Part shown: in pieces, positions 40,916 to 64,000 of the stretch
Numbering within the stretch: position 1 is the first letter of the stretch
How the letters are laid out: each line of letters begins with the position of its first letter
Assembly: GCA_032173965.1 (NCBI GenBank)
Contig: CM063284.1
Coordinates: forward strand, 107,465,910 to 107,529,909
Reading direction: 5' to 3'
Length of the DNA: 64,000 nt
From: Sitta carolinensis
Taxonomy: Eukaryota; Chordata; Aves; Passeriformes; Sittidae
Notes under the pieces: generated by a model
Told to the model about the DNA's origin: nothing
The model's database searches: none
Seen by the model: the letters and a program-made list of their open reading frames with translations, nothing else
Translations under genes and position numbers: made by a program

Positions 40916-41560
40916 GTCTGGCGGGTGTCGGGAGGCTCCGCTACCGCTCCCGCTCCCGCCGTTCGCGCGCGCACCCCACGGACCCAGCAGTGGCGGCGAT
41001 CCGGGAAGAACGCGGCGCGCGGGGGGGCGGGGGCGCGCGCCCGGTGGGACGGCCCATCCCCATCCCGCCGGGGGAGGGGGTTAAAGAGGACCGGCGGCTC
41101 CTTCCTGCTCTTCATCCTGGCGAGGAGGCGCCTCGATGAGACTGTGGCCGCTCCGCACGGCTCGACCAGAATAACTGGACCGAGAGCCGACACTGAGCTG
41201 CTCCGAAAGTGACCCCCTCCACAACAGCCTTGTCACGCGCCTTTCTTAGCCACCCCCTTTCCAATCCCGCCACGTTGGTACGTTCCTGCCCCACGCGCCT
41301 CATAGCAGGGAAGTGGTACGGCCGGCTGGGGGGGGATTGTGGCAGCGCTGTGGTGCGCACGTTGCAGGGAACACGCTTGGGCTGTGCCGGCAGTCAGTCT
41401 CTCCTCCCCCCTCTGCCCAGCGCCGCAGTTGGTTGCACCCGGGCAGCCCGCTCTGGCGGCAGCGCGGGGCGGAGCGGGACGGGACGGGCGGCGCTGAAGG
41501 GAGGCGCTGGGTGTGCGAGAGCTGCTGGTCTGCGGTCTGGAGCATCTCTCAAGAAGAGAG
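40260..41560. promoter_or_regulatory. SS18: CpG island covering the SS18 promoter and exon 1
   Basis: GC- and CpG-dense sequence with many GC boxes (for example ggggggcgggggcgcgcg near 41022) surrounds the SS18 start codon, in contrast to the AT-rich flanks. This is a typical housekeeping-type promoter. Transcription of SS18 must begin above 40915 on the minus strand. A second GC-box cluster near 41455-41500 (cggggcggagcgggacggga) on the far side suggests possible divergent transcription. No TATA box is evident. Exact start sites cannot be read from sequence. Confidence 0.85.
40847..40915 (-). CDS. SS18: SS18 coding exon 1
   Basis: This exon encodes the 23 N-terminal residues, beginning MSVAFAAPRQRGKGEI, a signature of SS18 proteins. 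It starts at the ATG whose complement ends at 40915 and ends at a CAGAAG|GTGAGG donor. It begins the SNH domain that contacts the BRG1/BRM module. It lies in a strong CpG island. The 5' UTR and transcription start must lie upstream (above 40915) but cannot be fixed from sequence. Confidence 0.96.
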
Positions 41561-41599
41561 ACTGCGGGAGCTGACCCTGTTAGTCTAAAGAGACGATTC

Positions 41600-41790
41600 G
41601 TTAGTGCATGTAAACGTCTCAAAGGAGGGTGCCAGGAGAGTAGTGCCCAGCAACAGGACAAGGAGCAATGGCCATAAACTAAAACACAAGAAGTTTCTAC
41701 TACAACATGAGCAAGGACTTTTTTAAATGGAGGATGGCAGAGCACTGGAACAGGCTGCCCAGGGGCTTGGGGCGGCTTTCCCCCATGAGT
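41600..41790 (+). mobile_element. CR1 LINE fragment
   Basis: Sequence such as 'ggtgccaggagagtagtgcc', 'caacaggacaaggagcaatg' and 'agcactggaacaggctgccc' is CR1 3'-region sequence. Only about 190 bp is present and the 3' tail is missing, so it is a broken copy just outside the SS18 CpG island. Confidence 0.85.
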
Positions 41791-42839
41791 TGGCCTGCTG
41801 CAGGATCCCTGCCGTGAGAAAGAAATAGAGCAAGAAACTCGGCTGCAAAATTAAACATAAATTACAGACGCTGGACATGCTTGATTTGTTTTAAAGCAGC
41901 CACTGGACGGAATCTCGGTGTGGCTCAAAGAGCCTCATGAACGGGGCTGCAAAGTCTAAGACAGTTTTTGGAAGAGTGAAAAGTTGCAACGGACAGTTGG
42001 TACAGGGACATTGAAAATCCCCAACAAAAGCATTATAAACCCGCTTTTCCTGGGCACATCCGTTGCTCAAGCCTTTGTGCATTCCAGCTCCACACTGGTA
42101 CAGAATGGTAGAGAATTCCTCGCCTTTAGCCAGCTGGTGGCCGCTCTTGCAGCTGGCCGAGGTGTGTGTGGCTGGCAGGACACCGGCTGCCCGCTGGCAG
42201 GATACCACAGCCCGCGCCACAAGACCTGAATCCTGATCCTTACTTCCTTGCTCCGTTTCTCAGCTGTAGCTGGCAGAAGACCCTGGCTCTTCCCTCCAGC
42301 CCTAGCCGGCCCTTTTGGGCACAGCACACGTTTGTCAGTGGCATCCATGGCCACCCCGTGGCTGTGCAGCTGCTTCCCGACTGACCTGCTCTCTCTCCTC
42401 AGACTGGGTCTAGGCTGGCTCCTGTCCCCAGCCCCATGACGATTGTTCGTGCTGGCTCTGCTCTCCGAGGATGTGCTGCGACTGCCCATCACCCCTGCTT
42501 TTTTCCCTTGACAACCAGTTTCTGGGCTGCTGGCTCCAAGTTGTTGTTGGATTCCTACAGCATCCCGCTCTCCAAAGGCTCGCCGCCTGGGCCTGATGCT
42601 CTCTGTTACCAGAATGACACTTCTTCTGCCCTGTCTCTTCAGATTATACAGGACACGGAGTTAATGCAATGCTAACCTGGCTTGCTTTTCTCCAGGAAAT
42701 ACCTGCGGCTCTCTAGGTTATGCTAAGATGGAGCAATGCCAGTGTGTCTGTTACATTGTCTTTCTAATCATTTCAGTCATCACTGTGGTCCATTTTTTGG
42801 GCTATTTTAGTCCATTTTTTCCTGTCTGCTATACACTTT

Positions 42840-42883
<44 letters not shown>
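42840..42883. repeat. (TCA)n trinucleotide microsatellite
   Basis: About 14.7 uninterrupted TCA units, then an imperfect unit (cattgtcatcac). A simple tandem repeat in intergenic DNA with no coding frame around it. Confidence 0.95.
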
Positions 42884-43164
42884 TGTCATCACTACTTATA
42901 ATACTTGTAGGAAGCCAAAAATAAAAAAGGAAAATTTGAAGAAACTGTATTTTTCTAACGTTGATATGCTTCATGGTGATCTATGGTTATTATTACAAGG
43001 TCTTGGAGTGAACTCAGAGAGTAACTGTTGTACTGAACCTGTGTGTTCATATTGGTACATTTTTAGTCACTACAAACAGCAGCAAAGAACCCTACAAATG
43101 AAGAATGTATGATGGCCGTGGCCAAATCAGTGTCACCTCTACCCAGTTAGTAATAGAAATATGA

Positions 43165-43168
<4 letters not shown>

Positions 43169-43196
<28 letters not shown>
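43169..43196. repeat. Poly(T) tract, 28 nt
   Basis: Mononucleotide run in intergenic DNA. No retroposon body is recognised on the minus strand beside it. Confidence 0.9.
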
Positions 43197-44895
43197 AGCA
43201 TACACTTGTCCCTGGAGAACTGGTGAGGTGTCTGAAAATGTCCCAAGGCTGCAGGCATAGCAAGCATGTTCCCATGGAATAAATACACTGAACACTGGGA
43301 ATGCCACAAAATGTTTTTCTTTCCACAAGTGTGACGTCCAAATGTCATGCTCTGGTTACCTGACTCCTGTGTATAAAGTATTTTGCACTGAGGTGTCTTG
43401 GTGATCAGAGTGTTTGAGACAGTGTGGGTTAAATGCCAGCCACATAAACATTGCTCTTAGGATCTGAATGTTCCATTTTGTTCTTCCACATTTTCAGGTT
43501 GGCTTTTGAGTTGAGGAAAAAAATAAATAGGCTTGTGGGATGCCACAGGTGAGGAATCTTAAAATTAAAGGAATCATTTCCCATTTTATTTCCCCAAATG
43601 GTCCAAACTAAATATATGAATTTTTTAGTACATTCCTGTTTCCATGCAAAATGCAGAACAGTGTTTGAAATTCAACTCTGTCAGTTTCTAGAGGAAAGAT
43701 ATGAAATCATTCATTCATTGTCGTTAAAACAATCTCCTTTGCTTCATTTTGTCTGAGGATTAAATTTAATCCTTTTATTTTTATTTTTTTTTTCCCATTT
43801 CTGATGTTTTTTCATTCATGTGTTTAACATTGTGGACTTCCACATTCATAAATAGCAACAGATCTAAAGAAACATTGAAAAAAAGTGAGTCTGAAGCGCT
43901 GGGGTTTTTTACCATGCAAAGGGAAATTCACATTCAAAATCAACATTTAAATAATGGCACAGATGCATACGAGCAGGGAAATAGATAGCTACAATGGAAA
44001 TGTGCCACATGTCTCAGAACACATAACCACAACAGGGTGTCTCTTTTATGACTTCCTTAATGCACTGCAATATGCTTAGATATCAAAGGACATATGGTAT
44101 ATTTTCCCTCTAATTGCACATTTCTTTGCTCTTGTGAGTTACTCACAACCTTAACATTATTTAATTGTAATTTAGATGCATAAATCTCAGTCATCATCAA
44201 GAGTTTCAAATGCAAATATGTTTCAGTGAGATCTTGGTTCCACCTCTATTCCAACTTTTGTCAGTGTAGTCTTTCTTTTTTGTTGATGTGCATTTCAGTA
44301 TGTCATATTTTTTTGGAGAGAGAAGAATTCAGACAGAGGAGGATTAGTCCTTTTCCGGAAGACTTTCTCCTATGTTTCCGACTCATATTTCTTAGGAACA
44401 AGTTGTTTTCTGACACTTGTATTATCTGAATTTCCACAGAGTCACAGACATTCCCATCCACAAGAAGGAAAACACAGAATAGCAGTTCATTAACATTTTC
44501 AAATGGACATTTGAAATTTAAAAAACTATACATAGTTTTTATGAAGCTATATATGCAAGAAAGGGATAGCAAAGAATTTTATGGTAGTACCATTTTCTTA
44601 AAAACCTTCATGACTACAGATCTCGGTATGAAAGTTAAAAATTCTTCCTATGAGCCAGGCGTTTCCTAGACAAAGCTTTTAACATATTTTTTTAACATAA
44701 TTTTATGTACTCACTCCAACTGACAGCAACCCACCCACTTTCTTTGCTATAGTAAGGATGATAGCTCAGATAATAAGTAATAAAATAAATAATAGATAAT
44801 AGATAATAAAAAGATAGGACAGTGGTGAATTTGAGTCTCTTTTTCAGAGTAAACTAATTTTTCATCTTGAAATTTAAAAAAATTAAAAGGGAGTG

Positions 44896-45191
44896 TGTTA
44901 CTGTGATGCAGATAGAAACACACAGTAACACACACAACAGGTGTTTAGGCAGAGAAGAAGAAAGGAAGTCTCTAGTTTATTGTTGACCTCGTATATATAA
45001 GTTTCTGGACAGTGATCAGAGATTGGACAGAGAAGTTACCACCTCTCCATCTTCACTGGTCACTTGAGAAGTCCATCAGGCGATATCTTTTCACAGAGGA
45101 ATGCAAACATGATTCTTGTTTATCTTAAAATTCATGAGAACTGACTCCACTATACTAAAACAAATCAGAAGGCTTATTTTCAGGGACAACA
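44896..45191 (-). mobile_element. Solo LTR (296 bp), copy A
   Basis: Starts TGTTACTGTGATGCAG and ends GGGACAACA (TG...CA). Flanked by ggagtg (44890-44895) and ggggtg (45192-45197), a 6-bp duplication with one mismatch. On the minus strand a TATATATA box is followed by AATAAA, giving the LTR orientation. It is the same length as copy B (52581-52876) and differs from it at about nine positions by eye (about 97% identity). No gag/pol/env sequence lies beside it. Confidence 0.85.
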
Positions 45192-46439
45192 GGGGTGTTT
45201 ATGTGGTGTTTCATATCAACAATACCATCAGGAAATAGAGCAGATCCCAAGGAAGAAGGGTCTTTTTGTAGACGAAAAAGGGAAGATGGCAAAAGGGAAA
45301 AATGCCATTTGGTGTAGTATTTCTTTACCAACTGAACTTGGTGATCTCATAACTTTTGGGATTTTCTACATGCCCGGTCTCTGTGTTAATTCATTTTGTG
45401 GCAAAATGAAGCTTGCACCTGAACGTCTGCGTATGGAAATGGTTGATGTTCAAATTCTCCTTGTTTAAAACCCAGAAACTTGTTATCGAAATACACAACA
45501 ATACCAGAGTGGGGTTTTTTTGGGTAAATGGTGCTTTTTGTTTCCTAAAAGGGATGATGCTAACAGAATGAATTTGTCTTGAATTTATTCTGCCAGCTTC
45601 TTGCCTGTTTCATTTTTTTTTTCCACAGAATTTTGTAATTTCTATTCTGCATTGGCTATTTTATGGAATAGTAATAAAAAGTAGCACTTGAAATGCAAGC
45701 CTGTATTTTCCAGTATAAAATAAAGTACTCAAACAGCACTTCACAGTACAAGGAATTTGGTGCCTCTGCCATATTCCAGAGGGGCAATAACAAACCCAGA
45801 AAAAAAATCATTGGGATGCTAAACTTTTATTCTACTACCTGTCATTTTAGTCTGAAAATATAAATATTTAGAATAAAGAAGCTCACAGCAGGTTCAGCAG
45901 TTTGCACTAATGGGAGTAAGTGCAATATCCGTGGTGAGAAAATCTTTACATGTCCTGATTTTATTCTTCAAAAGGGAATCTCCAGCTACTAGGAACTTAT
46001 GCCATAAATAAAAAATAGCAGAACATCTAATCTAAGCCTCCTTAGAGCTGAAAATTTCTCAAGTATTCTTAGAGGTTAATATTTTATTTTAGGGCATTGA
46101 AGCAAAGTGCTACAGATCACTAAATTCTTTAGTTTTTGAATGTTGAAAGCAAAGCAGGAAAGACAAACATAAGAAGGCACTGTCAAGCCTTGCTGAAGAA
46201 AAGGCAGCAAAGATCTTGATGGTCACTGTACTTTCATATCTGGCAAAAAGCCACACATTTGCAGCAGAGAGTCATACTGTTCTTCTGGGGAGTTACTTCT
46301 GCATCTGCATCATCTCCAGCATCTGCCTTCTGAAGACTCAGGACCATGAAGGACAGAGATGACCAAACAACTAGAGGGCAGTACTTCCACCTTGTCACAA
46401 TTCCAATCAACTTCCTGAGGGGGAAAATAAAAGTGCAAA
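45192..46439. other. Intergenic AT-rich stretch
   Basis: I see no gene or named repeat. A possible PSMA8 exon 1 relic near 45200-45260 was considered and is too weak to annotate. Confidence 0.6.
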
Positions 46440-47140
46440 TTATGTTAAGTGAGGGAAAGAAGACCTCCCTCATTCTGCTGGCAGTGCTCTTTCCAGTGCT
46501 GTCCACAATGCCCTTGCCCTTTGTGGCAAGGGTATGTTGCTGGTTTGCAACCTTGTCCACCAGGACTTCCAGGTACTTTTTGCAAAGTCATCCCTCAGCA
46601 TGAGGTGGTGCATGGGGCTGATTCTCACCAAGTACAGGACTTTGTTTTCCCCTTTGTTGAGCCTCATATGGTTCATGTCTGACTATTTCTTCAATCCATT
46701 GAGGTCATCCAAGAGCAATCCAAATTGCTGAGGATCCAATTCCTGCTGTCATCCAGGTTAGTAATGAAGAAGTCGGAGAGCACTGGCCCCAGCAGTGATT
46801 CCTGAGATGTACCACTGTTGAGTAGTCCCCAGCTGGACTGTGTGCTGCTGATCCCAACTCTGTGAGACTGACTGTTCAGCTAATGTTCAGTCCACCTTGC
46901 TGTATGCTTATTTAGTCTGCACTTCATCAGCATGCCTATGAGACGGTTGTAGGAGATAATGTCTAAAGACTTAACTAAAGCTGAGTCTACTAAAATATCC
47001 CCTCTCCGCTCAGACAGTATTTCTGTAGTATTCCTCCAGATTGCCTGTCCTTGCTTCCACCTCTGGTATGCTGCATTTTTAGGTTTGTTTTTTTTCAGGA
47101 GATCCTTGCTCATGTTCATGCAGACTCCTTGCATTTATGC
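46440..47140 (-). mobile_element. CR1 LINE fragment with reverse-transcriptase remnant, internally deleted
   Basis: On the minus strand 46880-47134 reads YQRWKQGQAIW, a hallmark of CR1 ORF2, then jumps to SALVKSLDIISYNRLIGML, matching the CR1 'SKAFDTVSHKILIEKLMKYG' region of the reverse transcriptase. The residues normally between them are missing, so an internal deletion has occurred. Sequence down to about 46440 corresponds to later CR1 sequence ('tggtgcatggggctgattct' is the complement of the '...CCCATGCACCA' segment). It is dead, with stops and gaps. Confidence 0.83.
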
Positions 47141-49110
47141 ATGTGTGTTTCTTTTCAAGAAGAAGCAAAAAGGAGGAGAAGGAAGATGCTTTGTGTGAGT
47201 ACAGTCTGTTAGAGGAGAGTCCCAAGGCAGAGAAGGTCTGCTGTGAAAAACAGGAGAAAACATATAAAAATAGTAACTATATTGAATTCTACTATTTATT
47301 TTATTTTTAATGCTTTTTTACCATTTCTCTTTTCCTTTTATTCAGCCTGAAATTTTAAAGCATGCCTCTCAGACAAAAAGATACTTTAAAAAAGTGTTAT
47401 CCTATAATTGCAATATATTCTTTTCCAAGCCAAATAGCAATATAGCTTACTGTTAAATCAGTCTGAAAAACAAGTTAACTTAATTTCGTATAAATAAGAA
47501 AAAATTCTAAGTTAAAAGACTAATTAGAAGCCTTGCTGATGGGAATGTGAGCCTTAATAATACTTATGCCTCTTTTCTGTTGATTCTATAGGAATAAGAA
47601 AAGAGTCTTTTTTCCTAGATTATAGCCTTCATTATTAAATACTACTAGTCTTCTAGTAATGACAAAATGTGGTTGTGGGTAATTTTCTAAATGCATTCAC
47701 AGTCTAGCTATTAGTGTGTATATATTTTTGAAGAAATGAGATACAGTTGCTCAAATCAATTCATTATGCCATTTTCTAAATGCTCTATTCTTTTTTAGCC
47801 ATTCCAAGTTGGCCTTTGATTCTGCTGTCCATGATGCATCATTTTACCCTGCTGATTCAATTAGTGAGAATAATTCAGTTTGGAATAATTATCTTTTGTA
47901 GGATTCAATATTTATGTATCTATTGAAAATAATAAGCATGGATTTTATTTTTCTTCGTCTTTCTCAGAATTCCTCATAGATAGTGTCAAGGAAAATAAAT
48001 TATAACCCAAGAATGAAGAATTGAAATAACTTTGCTCTTGAGAAAGGAACCAAAAAAAACCCCAAAAAAACCCAGACCTGAATTAATCAGAAATTATGAC
48101 AAGGAGAACCAAGTGGAAGAGAGAATGGCCAAATCTGGTGAAGAGAAGCAGATTAAACCTTCTATGTTTATTGATATTTATTGGTTTAGACCTAATTTTT
48201 CTAAGCAATGTAAAGAATTGTAAGGCTAGAACAAAGGACAAAATTTTAGTGGACTGACAATGTAACATGAAATTGGCTATGAAAACTTTCTGCTGGCATA
48301 TTTTAAAATGGAAGTTTTATGAGCTCTAGAACAAGTAGAATTGATGGTTAGATTGTATGTACCTATTGGCTTGGACTTTTGAAAAGAGCAAACATTTTAC
48401 AGTAGAAGTATGAAATCATAGCCTGTTATTCTTTTTAAATTACCAAAATATCAGCTTATGTCTTTTAAAATAATATACCGTTTTCTACATATATGCATGT
48501 AATATTTTACCCTGTGTGTACTTTACTATTTTTGTATAAAATAGTCACAGAAATTGTAAAGTTTGATGTTGGTTGTCTTATACAAAAGCTCTAGGTAAAT
48601 GATCAGGAGAATACTTATCATAAGAAAGTTGTGTAAAAAATGGATGAGTTTTGTATGTAGTGTACTATAAGAGTTTTTTTTTCTTGAGTTCTGGGTAAGA
48701 AGATACATTTCTTCAAGGAAAGGACTATGTTTGTTCCTATAAGCCCTCTTTTAAATCAATTTGTTAGTGTTAGTAGGAGAGCATCTTTGAGAAAGACTGA
48801 CTAAGCAAGGGAAGGGTTGCTTATTTTGTATTGATTGTGACTGTATTTCAATCATGCTTAAGATGTTCAGCTCAACATCCTTATTTATTTATCACTGATC
48901 CTATCATTCATTTAATTTCTTCAGTCCATTGTCAGATCTGACACAGCAATGGCCACTTTCCTTTTCTTTTTTCATTTACTTTCATATTCTAAGAAAAAGG
49001 TTTTATGAGGGGAAGTGATGAGTTTCAAATTGAGTAAGCACCCAAGTTCTTATCTGATCTTGAGATGTTGACTAACATTCATTCCATTAGTATCTCTAAA
49101 ACATTTTCAA
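47141..49110. other. Intergenic AT-rich stretch
   Basis: AT-rich DNA with an A/C-rich tract at 48048-48073. I see no gene, RNA or named repeat. Confidence 0.7.
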
Positions 49111-49118
49111 AGCAGTAG

Positions 49119-49193
49119 TTGTCTCTTTCTTTCTTTCGTTCTTTCTCTTTCTTTCTTTCTTTCGTTCTTTCTTTCGTTCTTTCGTTCTTTCGT

Positions 49194-49224
<31 letters not shown>

Positions 49225-49311
49225 CTCTCTCTTTTCTCCCTCCTTCCCTCCCTCCCTCCCTCCCGTCCATCCGTCCGTCCGTCCGTCCGTCCATCATCCG
49301 TCCGTCCTTTT
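49119..49311. repeat. Composite pyrimidine microsatellite: CTTT, CTCT, CCCT, then CCGT units
   Basis: About 190 bp of nearly pure pyrimidine on the plus strand passes through (CTTT/CGTT)n, (CT)n, (CCCT)n and finally (CCGT)n with CCAT variants to about 49311. Open frames across it (Ser/Phe-rich or Arg/Glu/Lys-rich on the other strand) are artefacts of the tandem repeat. Confidence 0.95.
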
Positions 49312-50124
49312 CCTTTCTCTATAAAAGGAGATTCTCTGTAGTGCATCTGCCTTCAAAACTCATGCCCACCAAAATACTTATGAAACCAGTGACAGTATTG
49401 AACTTGCAGTCTGGCATTATCTTACCAGCTAAGTAAATCTCACAGCGAGCTGTTACCAAATTCATGTTTTTTCCCTCTACGCTCACTTGTGTTCCCACTC
49501 TGTCTCCTGTGCCATCACTTTTACTTATCTGATCATGTAGTGAGATGTTTAAGGAAGCTAAATTGGCGGAAAACGAATTGCCTTTCTTTGAAAGCACTTT
49601 TCTGCCTGATCAGTTTCACAGATTGGGAGCAGATGAGTTTCAATATCAAAGCAAGAGAAGATGACTCACGGGGCAGAAGAGTGGAGCAGCTTTACCCTTC
49701 TTTGACAGCAGTTAACTTTTAGAAGACTGTAGCCATGACTGCACCTATAAACAGTGAGAATACTACTCACCACATTGATCTGTGCTGACTTGCTATCTGC
49801 CTGGGCTCTCATGTCAGTAACCACCTTATTTCCTTTGTTTTCTACTTGATTATAAGCCTTTTGTCCAGGGGATGCCTATCTGTACTGTATTTGTAAACTA
49901 CAACTTTTGCAAATTCAAAATCTTTTGCTGTGATGTTTACCATACCTTAGAATTTTTCCTTCTTAACAGGTGTAAGACATTATTATTATTTCTAATTTGG
50001 GGAGAGGGACACAGCCTCCAGATAACTGTTTGCCAATGTCTTTGTGAAAAGACTTATTACAACATCTCTTCTGCATAACATAAAAGAATATTTGGGATAA
50101 GAAAAATTTGTCCTTACGTAACAG

Positions 50125-50252
50125 GATGGAATTTGAGGGCTGGATACAGCTGTGTTGGGTATACGAAAACAAAAATGCTACCAAACTTCAAGAGGAAAGA
50201 ACTGTGAAGACAATGTATGCACTAGTTGATCACACCTGTTTGGCTTTTGCAG
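50125..50252 (+). pseudogene. PSMA8: PSMA8 pseudogene exon 2
   Basis: After an intact-looking ACAG acceptor the frame reads D-G-I-stop-G, then LDTAVLGI, matching PSMA8 VGIRGTNIVVLGV with the Arg codon turned into TGA (50134-50136). One extra base at 50164 shifts the frame, after which ENKNATKLQEERTVKTMYAL and DHTCLAFA follow, matching [20 protein letters not shown] and DHVCMAFA. Removing that base leaves 127 bp, exactly 42 codons plus one base as expected for this exon. The donor appears as GCAG|ATATTG in place of GT. Confidence 0.93.
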
Positions 50253-52580
50253 ATATTGTTACCAGTTATTGCACCACAATGTTGCCTTGCAAGTCTATGG
50301 TACATAGGAGACCTTTAAAATTGAATTTATGAAGATAATTGAATAACTATGACTTTATAAAGAATATTGTGAGGATGGACACTATGGTTTGGGAGATTGG
50401 TACTGGGATGTGAAGGCTTCTACACAACTGTTTTGAATATGGCTGAGGGATTCTTATGGTAATCATTTTGATTTTGCAAAATTATTGGTACTTTTTTTTT
50501 AAAAAAAAAAAAAGTCCTCTTTTAGCTGTCTTGTTTGCATCTCATTATTAGGAACAAGCCACTTGGATAGCAGAAGTTGCTCTTTACTAATTCCAATGGC
50601 AATAGGCAGACAAAGAGACAAGAAAGGCTAACCTACAGATAAAATTCATCAAAACAAATTAGAATTATATTGGAAATCTTTCTGGAGACTTGGAACATAA
50701 CTTTGGGCTTAAATCTCTGCTGCTGTCCTCCTCCCCTGCCCTAGATGCTGCCTCTTGACAAGTCCATCTCACAAAAGAGACCCCTCTTCCAAACATATAT
50801 AAGCCAGCCCTTTAGAACATTTGCATCCATAAGGAATATTTTTCTTCAGATGAGGACCGAATTAAGGCAAAATGCATGGAAGCTCAGCAGACAGTTAGCA
50901 GAACTGCCTAGAGCATATATATCATCCCCCTGTACAGTTCCATGGGACCCTTAAAGCTTGTCACGGCTCCCTGGCACCCCAAGGCAGAGGTCCTACCCCT
51001 GTAGGCTGTGCTCTCCCACTGTCACTTCTGTGCTGGCCTTGCTGCCTGTCTGGGGTGTGGCAAACCAGGCTGGAAGCACTGCAGGGCAGAGGGGTAAGCC
51101 AAGAAAACCAGAGAAGCTTTCTTGCAGTGTTTCACCTAGGCCAGGCGAGAGCCAGCAGAAAAAGAAGAAGAGGAAGCAATTCAAAGAGCAAAGCCACTGC
51201 ACAGGCTTAGATCAGTCTAAACTCTCACATTAGTGTGTGCTAGTGGGTGGCACTTCCTCCTGCCTCTGCTCTGTCCCAAGCACTGTCATCTCCCTGGTGC
51301 CCTTTCTGATGCTGCTTTGGAGCACTTGTGAGTTGACTCAGCTCACCAACCTCCTGGAAAAAAAATTTCACTTGCTTGTTGCATTGATTCAGTGGGCAGC
51401 CATATGAATCCCATTCCTGCGAGGAAAAGGGGAATGAAGGAAGAAGTTGGAGGAGGAGATGTAACTGTCCTTTTTTGAGGGTCAGACCATTAATGTCACC
51501 CACTGAGGGTGGAATTTGATGTTGCACATAACCAAATGTGCATGTAGGCTGCTCCTGAAGGTAATAATGTTAAACTCACTGATCTGATGCAAAGTGAATT
51601 CTTTTTTTGGTGAGTTGCCACAAAGCTGTGTGATTGTTAAATCCAGTTCAAGGAAAGCTGCAGGAATGTCTGTGGAAGTGGTTAGGAAGAACAGAACTGC
51701 TGTATTTTGTGGCAATCTCTAGGTTTATGCTATCAGGAGGTGAAACTATCCTCTTTGTGTGCTTTCAGAAGGGATGAAAACAAAATTCAGCTTCTCAAAA
51801 ACATTTAGTTTTGAGTTGGATCAACATACAGGTCTGTGTAGAACATCTGTAGAACTGCTCATCTTAAAAAAGGAAGAGAATCAAAATATGCAGTGAGGGG
51901 TAGAAGAGAGGAGAACATCTTTTGCAGCAGTGGGCTCTTATATTGGCTGATGCTGAACATGGAACTGCTCCCCAAGAAGGGGTGTCTAAGTGATCAAAGA
52001 AATTTTCAGCTTTTTGTAGTAAACAGCTCATCAGAATGATCCAACTTAAAAAAAAAAATATATTTTGCCTTTGGAAACTGCATATTTTCATTGGCCTCTC
52101 AAGCAAGTAAATTAGTGGGAGAATAAGAGAATAAAGAACTGCACCAGAGAGTGAATAATTTACTACAAAATTGGGAAGTAAGAAATTTACTCAACTGGCT
52201 CAACCATCAGAAAAGTTGTAATGTGGTACTGTGCTCTGGATTTTCTACAGTAACTTGTAATGAAGAAGAAAAAGGATTCAACTCAGTGGCACTCTGTTCT
52301 TACACACTATTATGCTGCTGGCAACCCCCATTTCCTGGTACTGTGGTTGGTTGGAGTGACACAATACCGGAACCATGATATGTGGTACCTAGGGAAGACA
52401 GTGCTTTTTACATGTATTTTTTGAGTGGCTAAATCCATATTTAATTTTTCAAATTAAATTTCTGTAAATTTAGAAACTGTTATGGCCTGATTTCTTTTTA
52501 CTTAAAATTGCTATTTCTTAGAATAAAGTTACTTCTATGTGCAGTTTTGAATTTGTCTGTTTTCACCTATGTTGTTTTCT
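50253..52580. other. Dead intron 2 of PSMA8 pseudogene
   Basis: AT-rich sequence with a T-run then A-run (about 50492-50513). Several short open frames occur without recognisable domains. I see no other gene or named repeat before the solo LTR at 52581. Confidence 0.65.
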
Positions 52581-52876
52581 TGTTACTGTGATGCAGATAG
52601 AAACACACAGTAACACACACAACAGGTGTTTAGGCAGAGAAGAAGAAAGGAAGTCTCTAGTTTATTGTTGACCTCATATATATATGTTTCTGGACAGTGA
52701 TCAGAGATTGGACAGAGAAATTACCACCTCTCCATCTCCACTGGTCACTTGAGAAGTCCATCAGGTGATATCTTTTCACAGAGGAATGCACATATGATTC
52801 TTGTTTATCTTACAATTCATGAGAACTGACTCCATTATACTAAAACAAATCAGAAGGCTTATTTTCAGGGACAACA
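52581..52876 (-). mobile_element. Solo LTR (296 bp), copy B, perfect 6-bp target duplication
   Basis: Starts TGTTACTGTGATGCAG and ends GGGACAACA, flanked by identical ttttct hexamers (52575-52580 and 52877-52882). It has TATATATA and AATAAA on the minus strand. Near-identical to copy A at 44896-45191. It sits in intron 2 of the PSMA8 remnant, just before exon 3. Confidence 0.9.
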
Positions 52877-52992
52877 TTTTCTCAGCGGTTTCTGACTTTA
52901 AAAAAATTGCAATGGTTTTCTCCTTCCTGAATAATAATTTGTTGTTAATTAATGAAGGACTCTGTGAGGACTTTATTGTTGTGATTATGCAG

Positions 52993-53096
52993 ACCTGACT
53001 GCTGGTGCCACAATAATGATTTAAAGCACCCCAGACTGACTCTTGAGGGTCCAGCCACAGTAGAATACATCACACACTGTCTTGCAACTTCAGCAG
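52993..53096 (+). pseudogene. PSMA8: PSMA8 pseudogene exon 3
   Basis: After a TGCAG acceptor the frame reads LTAGATIMI-stop, matching LTADARVVIN with the Asn codon now TAA (53022-53024). About 20 bp corresponding to the RVECQSH region is missing. The frame then resumes as RLTLEGPATVEYITHCLAT against KLTVEDPVTVEYITRFIAT. The donor is GCAG|ATAAGT, GT changed to AT in an otherwise consensus site. A 296-bp solo LTR ends only 116 bp upstream. Confidence 0.9.
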
Positions 53097-55158
53097 ATAA
53101 GTGGTTTGACACTTTTAGGTTTCTGCTTAAAAATGTCAGATGATAGTGAGTATCATGAAAAGGTATGGAAACTGGTTGAGGAAATCCTCTGGCTAAAGGA
53201 ACAGTCACATATGACAGCAGCTGGTGTTGTCCATACTTTGTACTCAGTCCATCAAGTATTTGCCACTATAATCCAGTGGACTAATTTCACTGCTGAGTTT
53301 GTGCTTAGTGAATTCTGAAAGCTCTTCCAGTGCCTGAGCTGATGGGGTGCCTCTTCACAAACAAAACTGCTGAAGACCATGTTTCGTCCTCGAGATCATG
53401 GTCAAACCAGCATCTCCTTGCCTCCAGAATGGACCAGCTGTGCCCTGGCTGCAGGTTCCCAGTATGTTCCAGAGACCATTGTAGCAGTAGAGATGAGCAT
53501 GCTCCAGTGTCTGATTACATCTCTGTTCTGGCACAGGTATAGCTAAAGGCAGCTGGAAGTTGCTGAATGGGATTTGTCTCCCCAATGCACAACAGGAGTG
53601 GTGTCCACCTTCACGGCTCAGCTTTGATTAGTTCTCTTTGGTAAGGCTTACTGGGAGAAGAGGAAGGAAGAAAATAGTGCATCAGCACATTTTGTAATTG
53701 CTTCCATACTTTAGTTATGACCAAACTGGAACAATTTTTTCTGTAGAACTAAAACTCCCCCAGACCTGTAAGAGTATGTGCCTTGGTGAAGGCAAAATCA
53801 AGTCACATTGGCTTTGAGGCAAAGGACTGAAGGACATCAGATCCTTTAAAGTCTTACACTAATTTTATGTATGTTCTGTGTGTTTTATGAATTTCTCTGC
53901 TTTTTTCCACCAATGAAATAAAAAATTTCAAAGTTGAATTGTGATTATCACTTCTATTTTGACCTATCTTTTTTTCTATGTGGGTAGTTTTATTACATAA
54001 GTATTTCTCATTACTGTGTTGATACTGTAAATACTAGTTTTATCAATTTGATATTCTTGCCAATTTTCTTTAACCTTTAATGCTATTGATGCTTTGATGT
54101 AGTTGCTAGAACTGGTAAGTAAGTACACACTTTGTGTTTGCCTCTATTTAAGAACTTTGTTGGGGAAAGTTGCTTTTTGATAATTTGCCAGGTAGTAGCC
54201 ATTCTTGCTGTTACCATTATCTCCCTCACTATTCCTTTTTGGTCAGAGATTTGGCCTCTTAACTTGGAGGTTATGGACCCAAGGCAATGAGGAGTCCTAA
54301 CTTCTTCTTTTCTCCTTTCTTAAGTATTGCATGTTTGTTTGTGTGGTTTTATTTTTCCCAAGGTGAGCATAGAGCAGCAGAGTTACTTAACGACGCAAGT
54401 GGTGGCGTTTAATTTTGCAGTCTTCTATTGTCTTATACTCTGATGTGCCCATCACACCTTCTTGGCTTCCTGTCCTGATGGGACCTGCCTGTACTTGCCT
54501 CTTATTCCCTAGTTTTTGCCTCAAGAGTGTAATTAACTGGATTAATGTTCATGACCTCTACTTGATTCCCAAAAGAGAGAAAGCAGGGAAGCCCTTGACC
54601 CCATCTGCTTTTCCCATCCTCTGAATATACTTTTTTTTTTTTTTTCACTGTAAACAGCGCAGAACACCTTTCTTACCATTCTCTTTCTAATTTCAAGAAA
54701 ATGCTGATGGATGATCCTTGTCTTTAGGACTAGTGAATGTGTGTTGGCAGTTGGACCACCAAGGATATCATTTATTGACAAAATCATGGCACAGGTGAAG
54801 ATGGTCATAATCAGCTCTTCAGTAAACCCAGGTGAAGCTTCCCACCTTCTGCATCTCTTCTATATGAACAAATGCTACTGGGTTTTTTTAGTGGTATTAT
54901 ATTAGAATAATTCTTCTATTATTAAATTTCAAGGAGGGAAAGATAATAATTGAATCACTAAAAATATTTATTCTCTAGATAATGTAAGAAAAGAAAGCAC
55001 AGCACTAGAAGCTAGTCTTGCACGTGAGACCATGTGGACAATCTTCAATTCACTAGGAAGTTGATAGTGATTTAGATGCCAATGAAACTGGAAAAAGTTT
55101 AGAATTCCATTTAAGAGGAACACTGTGTGTGCCTTTTTTTTTCTTCTCTGATGTAAAG
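53097..55158. other. Dead intron 3 of PSMA8 pseudogene
   Basis: I find no named repeat or gene. The plus-strand frame at 53082-53318 overlaps the exon 3 relic and shows no known domain. A 15-T run lies near 54632-54646. Confidence 0.6.
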
Positions 55159-55247
55159 AAGTATGTACCAATCTTTGGCAGTTCTTTCAAACGGAGCTTC
55201 TTGGCTGTTTTTGCAAAAAACCCTGTCTAACTCAGCCATGGCATTCT
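55159..55247 (+). pseudogene. PSMA8: PSMA8 pseudogene exon 4 (most degraded)
   Basis: A long pyrimidine tract and AAAG acceptor are followed by AAGTATGTA (KY..), then CCA and TTTGGC (P-FG), then AACGGAGCTTCTTGGCTG (NGASWL for DGISRL), then CAAAAAACCCTGTCT and CCATGGCA, aligning with QTDPS and YHAW. The remnant is about 89 bp versus 123 bp expected, so at least two deletions are needed. Position between exons 3 and 5 supports the call; the alignment alone would be marginal. Confidence 0.6.
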
Positions 55248-55712
55248 TAAAATGTGCAATATAGATCTACATGGGTTAGTGAAATAGTCTACATCCCAGC
55301 TTACTTGGAATGTTTCTACTATGGAAAGAATTTGAGTTGAAGGAACTCAAGGTTGCTCACAGGAGTGTGTTAAAGGATTGAAATTTTTGTGCTTTCCATA
55401 GTTGTTGATCAGAAGAAGTCTCAGCAAACAAGAGTTGCCAGAGAAAAAGAAATGGCATAAAAATAGTTGAGAACTGCTGCTCTCATGTATTTATGTTCTT
55501 AGATATCCTAAGATGAAGTACTGGATCATTAGCAGAGTCTAAGTACGAACTGCGAAGGGAAATGGTTGCCCTAGAAGACAGGAAAGTTGTGCACTGCATG
55601 TTGCACAGTCACTGTGAGGGAGTCCCTTTGCAAAATGTACATGAGCCATTATAAAAGTAATTTAAGCAGGTAAGATCATGCATGAAGTGGTGAGATTTGC
55701 AACTTCTTTCTG

Positions 55713-55834
55713 TCATCTGCAATTGGTGGCAATGCTAAAACTGGGTAAGAGTTTTTGGAACAGAAATACCCCAAAGTTGCTTCAGGAGCTCAAAGGACAC
55801 CATCAAATTAGCTAAGAAGTTATCCAGTACTAAG
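55713..55834 (+). pseudogene. PSMA8: PSMA8 pseudogene exon 5
   Basis: The frame reads SAIGGNAKTG-stop-EFLEQKY against NAIGRSAKTVREFLEKNY; the Arg codon is TAA at 55746-55748. After a diverged stretch and a 1-bp deletion, IKLA resumes at 55802-55813, exactly where the 34th codon should end. The acceptor AG is now TG (55711-55712), directly after a pyrimidine tract. The right end is uncertain because the last seven codons are scrambled. Confidence 0.85.
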
Positions 55835-55930
55835 TGCATGTTAGAAGCTGCAAGAAAAACCCAGGCCTCCTTCCTTCATGAAAATGCAAAATACCTAGCA
55901 AATATACTTGTTTTAATGATTTCATTGTAT

Positions 55931-55990
55931 GTTACACTGTGTGAAAAAAACATTGAACTTACTATAATAAGGAGAAACCAGCCATCTCAG
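55931..55990 (+). pseudogene. PSMA8: PSMA8 pseudogene exon 6
   Basis: Sixty bases read VTLCEKNIELTIIRRNQPSQ without a stop, against VQSGGKNIELAIIRRNQPLK, and 60 bp is exactly the expected length. It is the best preserved block. The acceptor reads GTAT where AG is expected (55929-55930), and the donor is TCAG|ATATGT. The open frame extends past both junctions (55838-56131), but the flanking translation is not proteasome-like. Confidence 0.92.
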
Positions 55991-56499
55991 ATATGTATTA
56001 ATGACTCTATAGGAAACAATTATATAAATGGTATGCAAAATCTTCCCACAAAAATTATTCCAGGTGACACCTGTGCATTCAACTTGATGTATGAAATCTC
56101 CCATAACATCTGGTGGTACAATGTTAGGTGACTTTTGTAGTGTCTCTGTAGATTGATAGTGCTGGGAGCTATAATGCTTGCTGCTGATTTATAATAGTGT
56201 AAGAGACTGTTGGGAACATTTCATGCAGGAAGCAGTGTAGGAAGGTGTATAGCAACATGCTATTTGTGTGGGTTGTATAAGACATTATCATTGTCTTTAA
56301 AAATGATGAAAATTATAGCAGTGTTTTAGACTGTAGTGATCCTTATCACAGTGTTTCTGACATGTTGTAGTCCCTTTGTAGCTTAACATCTTCTGTTTCC
56401 ATCACAAGTGGAAGAAACAGGTTTTAGAGTGTATAAAAAAATCACATTAAAATATTATCAGAATGCAGTGTTCTCAGTTTTTGTAATAGTTACTGTAAT

Positions 56500-57255
56500 A
56501 CTACCTCTATAAAGTACTGCCAGTAGGTTAAAGGGAGACAAACTTTCCTCTCTTCACAGCACTGGTGAGGCCACACCTGGAGTGCTGTATTCCATTCTGG
56601 GCTTCCCAGTACAAGAGAGACATGGATGTACTGGAGACAGTCCAGCAAGGATGATGAAAGGACTGGAGTGTAGCTGTTTCTGGTAGCACACGATATGGAC
56701 TCCAAATCATCAAGAAGAGTAATACCACTTTTATTAGGGATCATTCTCCCTTATATACAATTTTCCACAGACCACTGTGATTGGTGAGAGAAAGACAAGC
56801 CTCTTCACCCACATTGGTCAAACCAGAGTGACATCAAGAGAGATCACTCCTCCCAGAAGAATTCATAACATGGATACCATTACAAAAACAATCCTGGTGT
56901 TTATGTTCTTTCCCTGGGAAAGAACTTCAGAAAACCAAAACATCAGAAAAACAGAACTTTAGAAAACCAGAACATGAGGCCTGAAACCAGAATACACTGG
57001 AGCATCTCACCTATGAGGTTTAGAGTGCTGGGACTGCTCAGCCAGGAGAAGAGAAGGCTCAGGGAGATAATGTCTATAAATACCTGACGGGAGGGTGCAA
57101 AGAGGACAGCTGCAGTGGTGTTCAGTGACAAGACTGGAGTTAACAGGCTCAAACTGAATCACAGGAAGTTATGCTAAACATCAGGCTTTTTTTTTTTTTT
57201 TTTAATGAGGTGATGGAGCACCAGAGGGTATTGCCAGTCTCCAGGTAGTCAGCTT
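56500..57255 (+). mobile_element. CR1 LINE fragment, split by a solo LTR
   Basis: The left part (about 56500-56668) contains 'ctggtgaggccacacctgga' and 'tgctgtattccattctgggc'. The right part (56997-57255) resumes with 'gcatctcacctatgaggttt', 'cagccaggagaagagaaggc' and 'caggaagttatgctaaacat'. Both are consecutive pieces of CR1 on plus, so the intervening 328 bp is a later insertion. A 17-T run (57187-57203) interrupts the right part. The copy has no intact frame. Confidence 0.88.
56669..56996 (-). mobile_element. Solo LTR (328 bp) nested in CR1
   Basis: Starts TGTAGCTG and ends AGAATACA (TG...CA), with exact 6-bp duplications ctggag at 56663-56668 and 56997-57002. On minus, TATATAAGGG precedes AATAAA, as in an LTR promoter and poly(A) signal. 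Its sequence differs from the 296-bp family. Because the surrounding CR1 reads through when the element and one ctggag are removed, both boundaries are secure. Confidence 0.87.
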
Positions 57256-58904
57256 GAATAACAAATTTTAATGAGTGTGTACTTTGAAATTCAGTACGCA
57301 TTTCCTCTCTCCTAGTATGATAGTACTGTAAGTAACTGTGACTTGGGTGTTTTGGAAACAGCACAGAAAAAATAGGGGAGGGAACAAGATGTAAATGCAT
57401 TTTCCTAAATGTTTAAATAGGGGAAACAATTTACTTTTCATTAATGCTTTTGAAATTAGACTAATTTTTCAGTTTCAACATTTGTTCAAAGTTTAAAATA
57501 CCACTCTTTCCCCCTTCAAATATGAGAACACTGCGAAGGAAGGAAGAGGAAGGGAAAAAATCTCAATATTTTTATTAATGACCAAAAAAAAAAAAAAAAA
57601 AAAAAAATATCCAGGTATTCTTTGCAGGCACTTTTTGATCAAGTAAACCAGTTTCTTTGAATTATCCATGGAAGGAAAATAAGGAAACAAGATTGTAGTT
57701 CCAGGTTCAGAAATCATTAGCTTTCTATGCTTTTATGCTCTTTATGTATTAAGGGTAAATCAAATTATGAATTCCAGTGGAAGACAAGCAGTTCAGCTAA
57801 AAAACATGCACCTACTTAATCTAGGATGATATGCAAGCATAGGGAGGTGGAAATTTAACACACCACTCTAGCAATAGTTTTCTACAATGTGATATTTGTG
57901 AGGATAAAGGAAAAATAGATTGGAGCATCACAATTGGAAATTTATGGCATTAATCATTTTGTTTTACTCAGATTTTTAATGCAAAAAATACAGAAATGCA
58001 TGTTACAGAAGCAGAGAAGGGAAAAAGGTCTAAGTCACAGAACAATTATGACAGCATAATGTTTTTGAATCTCTAAGAGGCAGTAATTGTCCCCAGCGCA
58101 GAGTTGCTGAATTAACTTGTTTCTATCTAAGATGAGTTCTGTGGTTTTCCTGAAACATGATGGAGCTAGAGTTGTGCTACTTCTGATAAGCTTGAGCTGT
58201 GTAAGAAGAGGCTTGTTTTTTCCCCTTGCATATATTTGCCACAAAAAAATTACTGACATTTTTTCCAGAAGCTGATGATTGGCCTGGGTTAGTGGTGGTA
58301 CAGCATATGTAAAATCTGTCAGAACCTCATTTTTCCTCCTTTTTTATTGTAATTTTTGCAAATAGGCTAATTACTGCTCCATGGTACTATAAGTCCAGTA
58401 AAGATCTTATTTGTGTTCTGTTTCATTTACTAAGTGTTGCAATACCGTACATTATTCATGAGCAATATCAATAAATAAAACAGGAACACCACTGTACATA
58501 ATGCTGTATTATTATAGGCCACTGCAGCTTCAGTGATAAAACTCTTTTCTTTTAGTGAGTTTTCCTGGATAGCAAGTAGTATCCAGTATAACTTCATACT
58601 ATAATTCTGTAATTCTAAACATATTAAGCCTGAGATTAATTGGTTTTATTATCTGTGTTCTGTTGAGAATATATTTGTGCCCAATGGCTAAGCTTTAATA
58701 CTGTGGATCTCTTTTGCAGAGGCATTCTTCCTGTTACCGTTTCCTGTTACTGTATATTTTCAGCTACTCATGGTTCTTGCTTGTGCCCATCCCTCCCTTC
58801 TTTCTTCCTTTGTTCACTTAGTTTTCTGATCTATTTTTCTCACTTAGAGCCAAGCTTGTGTGGCATGTGTGCTTTCCAGACCTTCCCACCTCACCAGCTC
58901 ACTT
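57256..58904. other. Intergenic AT-rich stretch
   Basis: Includes a 25-A run at 57583-57607. A purine-rich segment at about 57517-57565 resembles the Lys/Glu-rich tail of PSMA8 only in composition. I see no gene. Confidence 0.6.
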
Positions 58905-62866: not shown

Positions 62867-63142
62867 GCACCTCGGCGGCCCCGGTCAGGCTGATGCCCGG
62901 CGGGCACCCGGAGCAGGCGGCCGCCTGCGCCCCAGCCGCGGGCTCGGCGCCCGACCGGGGCAGCCCCGCCGCCGCTGTGCGCGGCGGCCCCGCGCCCGCC
63001 GCCGCCGCACCGCGCCCGGCGGCCGCCCCCGCGGGCACCCCGGTGGTGCGGGGCGCCGCTCCCGGGGTCCCCCGGCCGGTGGCGCCCAAGGGGCCGCCCA
63101 CGGCCACCCTCCAGTTGCCGGCCAACTTGCAGCTGCCCCCAG
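62863..63142 (+). CDS. TAF4B: TAF4B coding exon 1 (rest of gene beyond window)
   Basis: TAF4B is a variant TFIID subunit enriched in gonads that pairs with TAF12 and supports germ-cell gene expression. The exon gives 93 codons plus one base: an Ala/Pro/Gly-rich start MSTSAAPVRLMPGGHPEQ and a C-terminal PTATLQLPANLQLPPG, matching TAF4B (NTTTIQFPANLQLPPG in human), followed by a consensus CCCCAG|GTGAGT donor. The TAFH and histone-fold domains are in later exons outside the window. TAF4 itself has a similar LQLP segment, but the SS18 neighbourhood points to TAF4B. The start was chosen as the first ATG of this frame; the low-complexity N-terminus gives no independent check. Confidence 0.85.
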
Positions 63143-64000
63143 GTGAGTGATCCGTCCTGGGTTGTCCCGGCTGCGGGCACGTCCCGTATCGCGACTTACC
63201 CGGCGTGTCGCGGTCGCCGCTGCCGTAGGGGCGGTGGGCACGAAAGAGGCTGCCGCGCTGCCCTTGCTGCTGGGGACGAGCCGTGGCGAAGGACGGGCCG
63301 GGCGGCGGGGGTGATGGTGATGGTGGTGGCGGCGGCGGTGTGTGTTTCGGGCTGGTTGTCTGCCCCAAACTTCTGGGAACCGGACTATGCGTCTGCCTTG
63401 CAGGGCATTGGCAGTGAGATTGGGCTCAGTCGGGTAGCGCTGGGGATGCTTACAGCCTGTCTGAAGGATGCATCTGGAAGTCTCTGGATAAAGGCAACTT
63501 CTGACTTAGCTAGATAGCACGAAGAGCGGGAGAAGTAACCAAAAACTCAGCGGCCAAGTTACCCTTATACGTGACTTGAAAAAGACTGCTCGAGGCTTTA
63601 GTGGAACTTGGAAGGAGGAGTATCCCGGGGAGGGGGGTGTGAGCGCGGGTCGGCGGCTGCAGAGCTCCTCCGTAATTTATGGAGCGGGCCAGGCTGCCCG
63701 CACTGCCCCCCAGCCGGGCCGTCCCGCGGCAATTCTTGTCGCTGGCACAACCAGGCCGATGCGACTTTTCCTGGAACAAAATGCTGCCGTGCTTAAGGAG
63801 GGCAGAGTTGAGAGTTCATTACGTGTTGCTCCTTGAAACTCTTTTTTTCTGTAAACCCTCTGTGGGAAACGTAAGAGTTCGGAGAGATACCGCCCTTACA
63901 GGTGTGCTTCCTATAGCAGCAGTGGCTGATACAGACATCTTAATACTTTGGATAGCAACAGAGGATTAGCCAGGCTTCCACCTGCATTTTCTCTTAAGAG
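63143..64000 (+). other. TAF4B: TAF4B intron 1 (start)
   Basis: Begins with the GTGAGT donor and leaves the CpG island at about 63520. It includes a short GATGGT/GGCGGC-type tract near 63309-63340. I see no further exon before the window ends. Confidence 0.75.

Follow-up and report, generated by a model that had tools for sequence, protein, structure and literature searches.

The window, by which we mean the whole analysed stretch of 64,000 nucleotides, contains SS18 on the minus strand, the beginning of TAF4B on the plus strand and, between these two genes, five decayed exons resembling PSMA8, the gene encoding alpha4s, a subunit of the sperm-cell form of the proteasome in mammals (Table 1). 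SS18 extends past the left end of the window, its first coding exon lying at 40844-40915; that of TAF4B ends ...LQLPANLQLPPG. In human, the PSMA8 locus is likewise flanked by SS18 and TAF4B. KCTD1, PSMA8, SS18, TAF4B and ZNF521, given here in alphabetical order, have been listed as genes of one cluster (PMC3436827).

Table 1. Features of the locus, with positions in the window. Exon scores are from the frameshift-aware search with human PSMA8 and with PSMA7 of this genome; the shuffle column gives the number of dinucleotide shuffles reaching the PSMA8 score.
Feature	Position	Strand	Length (bp)	PSMA7 exon (bp)	Score PSMA8/PSMA7	Shuffles	Acceptor	Donor	Remarks
SS18	3-40915	-							Ten colinear tblastn pieces, 76-100% identity, query human SS18
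PSMA8 exon 2 relic	50125-50252	+	128	127	110/106	0/300	AG, intact	AT in place of GT	TGA at 50134-50136; one inserted base near 50164
PSMA8 exon 3 relic	52993-53096	+	104	125	63/62	0/300	AG, intact	AT in place of GT	Frame shifts internally
PSMA8 exon 5 relic	55713-55827	+			68/53	0/300	TG, not AG	Ambiguous, end uncertain by 1-2 bases	TAA at 55746-55748; one frameshift
PSMA8 exon 6 relic	55928-55990	+	63	63	60/50	0/300	TG, not AG	AT in place of GT	No indel
PSMA8 exon 7 relic	57972-58059	+			52/38	0/300	AG, intact		Best PSMA7 match located elsewhere
TAF4B first coding exon	62920-63144	+							E = 7.6e-9, 40% identity, query a TAF4B fragment

The remnants were located with human PSMA8 as query, a sequence identical to PDB chain 9tmn_D. 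Frameshift-aware alignment of this protein to positions 41300-62500 of the window recovered exons 2, 3, 5, 6 and 7, all on the plus strand and in gene order, spread over 7.9 kb with introns kept between them. Measured against a PSMA7-like structure of seven exons, five exons lie at the expected breaks. Plain tblastn with PSMA8 yielded matches of which the best five of the 40 listed were all on the plus strand and gene-ordered (E = 2.8e-6, 0.002, 0.017, 0.12 and 0.17). The seven-exon chain scored 407, against 204.6 ± 7.4 (maximum 232) for 300 dinucleotide shuffles of the DNA, 207.8 ± 7.8 (maximum 232) for 300 shuffled proteins and 199-235 in five control stretches. Rearranging the five exons in all 120 possible orders gave the highest score, 353, for the true one, the next reaching 333.

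Exons 1 and 4 were undetectable. Within 41300-62500 the best score for exon 1 was 29, reached by 252 of 300 shuffles, and that for exon 4 was 32, reached by 176 of 300. Restricting the search to the proper intervals gave for exon 1 (41300-50110) a best protein score of 28 and a best DNA score of 107, with 22 of 200 shuffled queries scoring as high; for exon 4 the best protein score was 26 (53110 to 55690/55700) and the best DNA score 103 (53110-55690), a value that 13 of 200 shuffled queries also attained. A candidate for exon 4 picked by eye near 54730-54800 was dropped because of its score of 19 (54745-54771).

Human PSMA8 fits the chain of relics better than PSMA7 of this genome does (407 versus 361). 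Exons 2 and 3 by themselves barely discriminate between the two proteins, and at the noise level of exon 1 (PSMA8 29, PSMA7 32) and exon 4 (PSMA8 32, PSMA7 29) neither gene is favoured. In 28 aligned columns in which PSMA8 and PSMA7 differ, the relic is PSMA8-like in 13, PSMA7-like in five and like neither in ten, a count slightly tilted to PSMA8 because the alignment was built against PSMA8. Judged by these comparisons, the remnants are PSMA8-type and not PSMA7-type.

PSMA7 itself is intact on contig C25, with seven exons comprising 248 codons and a stop. About 2.3 kb upstream of it, on the opposite strand and head to head, lies the first coding exon of SS18L1 (L049:8463-8576, minus). Since PSMA7 stands head to head with SS18L1 as the relic does with SS18, the two lie in corresponding duplicated regions. 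A TAF4 fragment found no match in the two C25 stretches beside PSMA7. When the whole assembly (1.03 Gb in 252 contigs, gaps being possible) was searched with PSMA8, 18 matches were obtained: the seven PSMA7 exons, one from the relic and ten in exons of further alpha-subunit genes, with identities of 33-65%. No alpha4 gene other than the intact PSMA7 was found in the assembly. These results bear on a first alternative, namely that the relic is an additional copy of PSMA8 or PSMA7 that has decayed and that an intact PSMA8 resides elsewhere in the genome. The five PSMA7-like columns would agree with an extra copy, but the relic sits at the site expected for PSMA8, between SS18 and TAF4B, and the sole intact alpha4 gene adjoins SS18L1, in a search sensitive enough to pick up both the relic and alpha subunits of such modest identity. 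A retrocopy is ruled out because the introns are retained. We regard an extra copy as very unlikely.

The lesions of the relic are of several kinds. Exons 2 and 5 each carry one stop and one frameshift, exon 3 has a changed frame, further exons are missing, and splice sites are altered (Table 1). PSMA8 at this locus can therefore no longer encode alpha4s. Several details had been put forward in an earlier note on this DNA. Its five ordered, same-strand relics with introns were borne out far above chance, except that the interval 50125..55990 to which they had been assigned holds only exons 2, 3, 5 and 6, exon 7 lying beyond it. Exon 2 indeed measures 127 bp once one inserted base is discounted. 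Exon 6, said to be exactly 60 bp, reads 63 bp (KNIELTIIRRNQP), equal to exon 6 of PSMA7. Lesions had been described throughout; the relic does contain stops, indels that break the frame and changed splice sites, but the acceptors of exons 2, 3 and 7 keep their AG.

In exon 7 the acceptor is accompanied by an intact pyrimidine-rich tract (IFNAKNTEMHVTEAEKGK), and the aligned pieces of exons 6 and 7 are free of stops and frameshifts. One might take this as a sign that a shortened gene or a non-coding transcript still functions, with exons 6 and 7 open. Two exons of such shortness could, however, easily stay open by chance, and the undetectable exons 1 and 4, the stops in exons 2 and 5 and the three altered donors make residual function scarcely credible. 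That the blocks resemble a conserved protein merely by chance, as their short lengths and the E values of exons 5 and 7 taken singly (0.17 and 0.12 in plain tblastn) might suggest, is practically out of the question for five ordered pieces on one strand, each scoring above all 300 shuffles, in the best of 120 orders and with a chain score unmatched by shuffles and control stretches.

The three donors that are clearly readable, those of exons 2, 3 and 6 (50253-50254, 53097-53098 and 55991-55992), share an identical change at intron position 1, reading CAG/ATA (exon/intron). Because only seven of 48 G at comparable exon sites became A, three identical donor changes out of three are somewhat unexpected, and the coincidence may be due to chance. 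Just 5' of the exon 2 relic a long TCTT/TCCG simple-repeat tract occupies 49122-49307. At 56550-57200, within the final intron of the former gene, lies what looks by eye like a CR1-type repeat with an insert of about 330 bp inside it.

PSMA8-type remnants, their lesions, the flanking SS18 and TAF4B, the PSMA7/SS18L1 counterpart and the lack of another alpha4 gene in the assembly together make it very probable that the locus is a unitary pseudogene of PSMA8 at its ancestral site. This agrees with the reading of the earlier note, which had argued for PSMA8 rather than PSMA7, for loss in place between SS18 and TAF4B and for a locus from which no alpha4s protein can be made; of the two findings that it had named as contrary to this reading, an intact PSMA8 elsewhere did not appear in the search of the whole assembly, and a match no better than chance is countered by a chain score of 407 against a shuffle maximum of 232.

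The age of the loss was estimated from sites at which every substitution is nonsynonymous and at which the residue is common to human PSMA8, PSMA7 (chain 3une_C) and PSMA7 of this genome. The relic differs at 39 of 191 such sites, for which the Jukes-Cantor distance is 0.238 (bootstrap range 0.163-0.322); when the count is confined to exons 2 and 6, 13 of 84 sites differ and the distance falls to 0.173. Birds accumulate 1.9-3.3e-9 substitutions per site per year. Together, the distance and these rates correspond to about 72-125 million years, or 49-169 million years with sampling error, a figure that leans low because local alignment retains the best-preserved parts. The sequence comparison gives a rough age of at least some tens of millions of years. 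Since turtles and crocodiles are recorded as having Psma8 (PMC6662770), the gene most likely disappeared in the bird lineage once this had separated from crocodiles.

The loss of PSMA8 in birds is already known and not new: a sentence in Zhang et al. 2019 (PMC6662770) records the elimination of Psma8 from birds, and the paper reports the same for amphibians, lizards and some bony fishes. Extension of the loss to all birds rests on that paper, the one genome examined here being, to judge by its contig sizes and gene content, that of a bird. The relic sequence, the exon inventory, the lesions and the age, absent from the passages on Psma8 in that paper, are given in the present study. Two reviews describe alpha4s as conserved across vertebrates or as of amniote origin (PMC12650242, PMC13022661), and their passages on PSMA8 and birds make no mention of a loss of alpha4s in birds. 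The main text of a paper on bird gene loss (PMC4290089) names neither PSMA8, PSMB, the proteasome, SS18 nor TAF4B. No description of the relic itself was found in titles and the openings of abstracts, most subscription journals lying outside the scope of that search. We add the anatomy of the relic, a rough age and an inventory of the 14 genes of the 20S proteasome. With the relic legible in place, what had been reported as an absence becomes a documented decay, open to dating and to comparison among birds; beyond that, the biology is not new.

In mice, male meiosis cannot be completed without PSMA8, and knockout of Psma8 renders males infertile (PMC6662770, PMC6726247). PSMA7 drops at pachytene as PSMA8 rises, and in Psma8-null testes removal of RAD51 was not restored by extra PSMA7 (PMC6662770). 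Alpha4s is thus absent in knockout mice and in birds alike, yet the mice are infertile whereas birds evidently breed without the gene. A lineage that lacks PSMA8 and still breeds indicates that the need for PSMA8 in male meiosis is dispensable. Taken with the drop of PSMA7 in mice and the failed rescue, this suggests that birds changed when PSMA7 is present or how such substrates are removed, or that they never depended on alpha4s as mice do. In the course of events that we propose, alpha4s would have been lost long ago on the bird line, every 20S proteasome of this bird, including those of the testis, would contain PSMA7, and spermatocytes would have altered either expression or the handling of substrates, so that meiosis can do without the switch to alpha4s. 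The relic locus would most likely be functionless.

The 20S inventory was drawn up from a Pfam PF00227 search of the whole assembly. Its 37 matches were assigned to 14 genes, alpha1-alpha7 and beta1-beta7, one per position, on the basis of translated exons and, in part, known subunit sequences. Of the 37 matches, 30 were read in translation, as were four neighbouring pieces from the PSMA8 search; among the other seven matches, one is exon 5 of PSMA7 and six were placed by their position beside exons that had been read. Compared with PDB sequences, the three catalytic subunits were closest to the standard and not to the immunoproteasome forms: beta5 matched PSMB5 best (200.7 bits versus 159.6 for PSMB8), beta1 matched PSMB6 (127.5 versus 92.7 for PSMB9) and beta2 matched PSMB7 (247 versus 177.4 for PSMB10). 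The alternative subunits PSMB8, PSMB9, PSMB10 and PSMB11 were undetected by the PF00227 search of the assembly, from which faint relics of such genes could escape because it scores single exons and best candidates only. The PSMA8 relic was not listed by this search. Immunoproteasome, thymoproteasome and PA28 alpha-beta are described as lost in birds (PMC12650242, PMC13022661, PMC7915322). Our inventory agrees as regards PSMB8-PSMB11, and in each case alternative parts of the 20S proteasome were lost; the losses described earlier, however, concern catalytic beta subunits and caps, whereas PSMA8 encodes a germ-line alpha subunit with a structural role. We lean towards the view that this bird has a single kind of 20S core, with one gene for each of the 14 positions and the alternative subunits known from vertebrates (alpha4s, beta1i, beta2i, beta5i and beta5t) all gone. 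On this view, bird spermatocytes would have to retain PSMA7-bearing proteasomes throughout pachytene, or to clear RAD51 and RPA1 by some other route, and birds would offer a natural test of the mammalian need for alpha4s. PSMB5 (beta5; L001, L007) sits on the small contig C199 of 240 kb. Although PSMB5 is the best match of its pieces, their bit scores relative to length are below those of the beta1 and beta2 pieces, which suggests a faster change of PSMB5.
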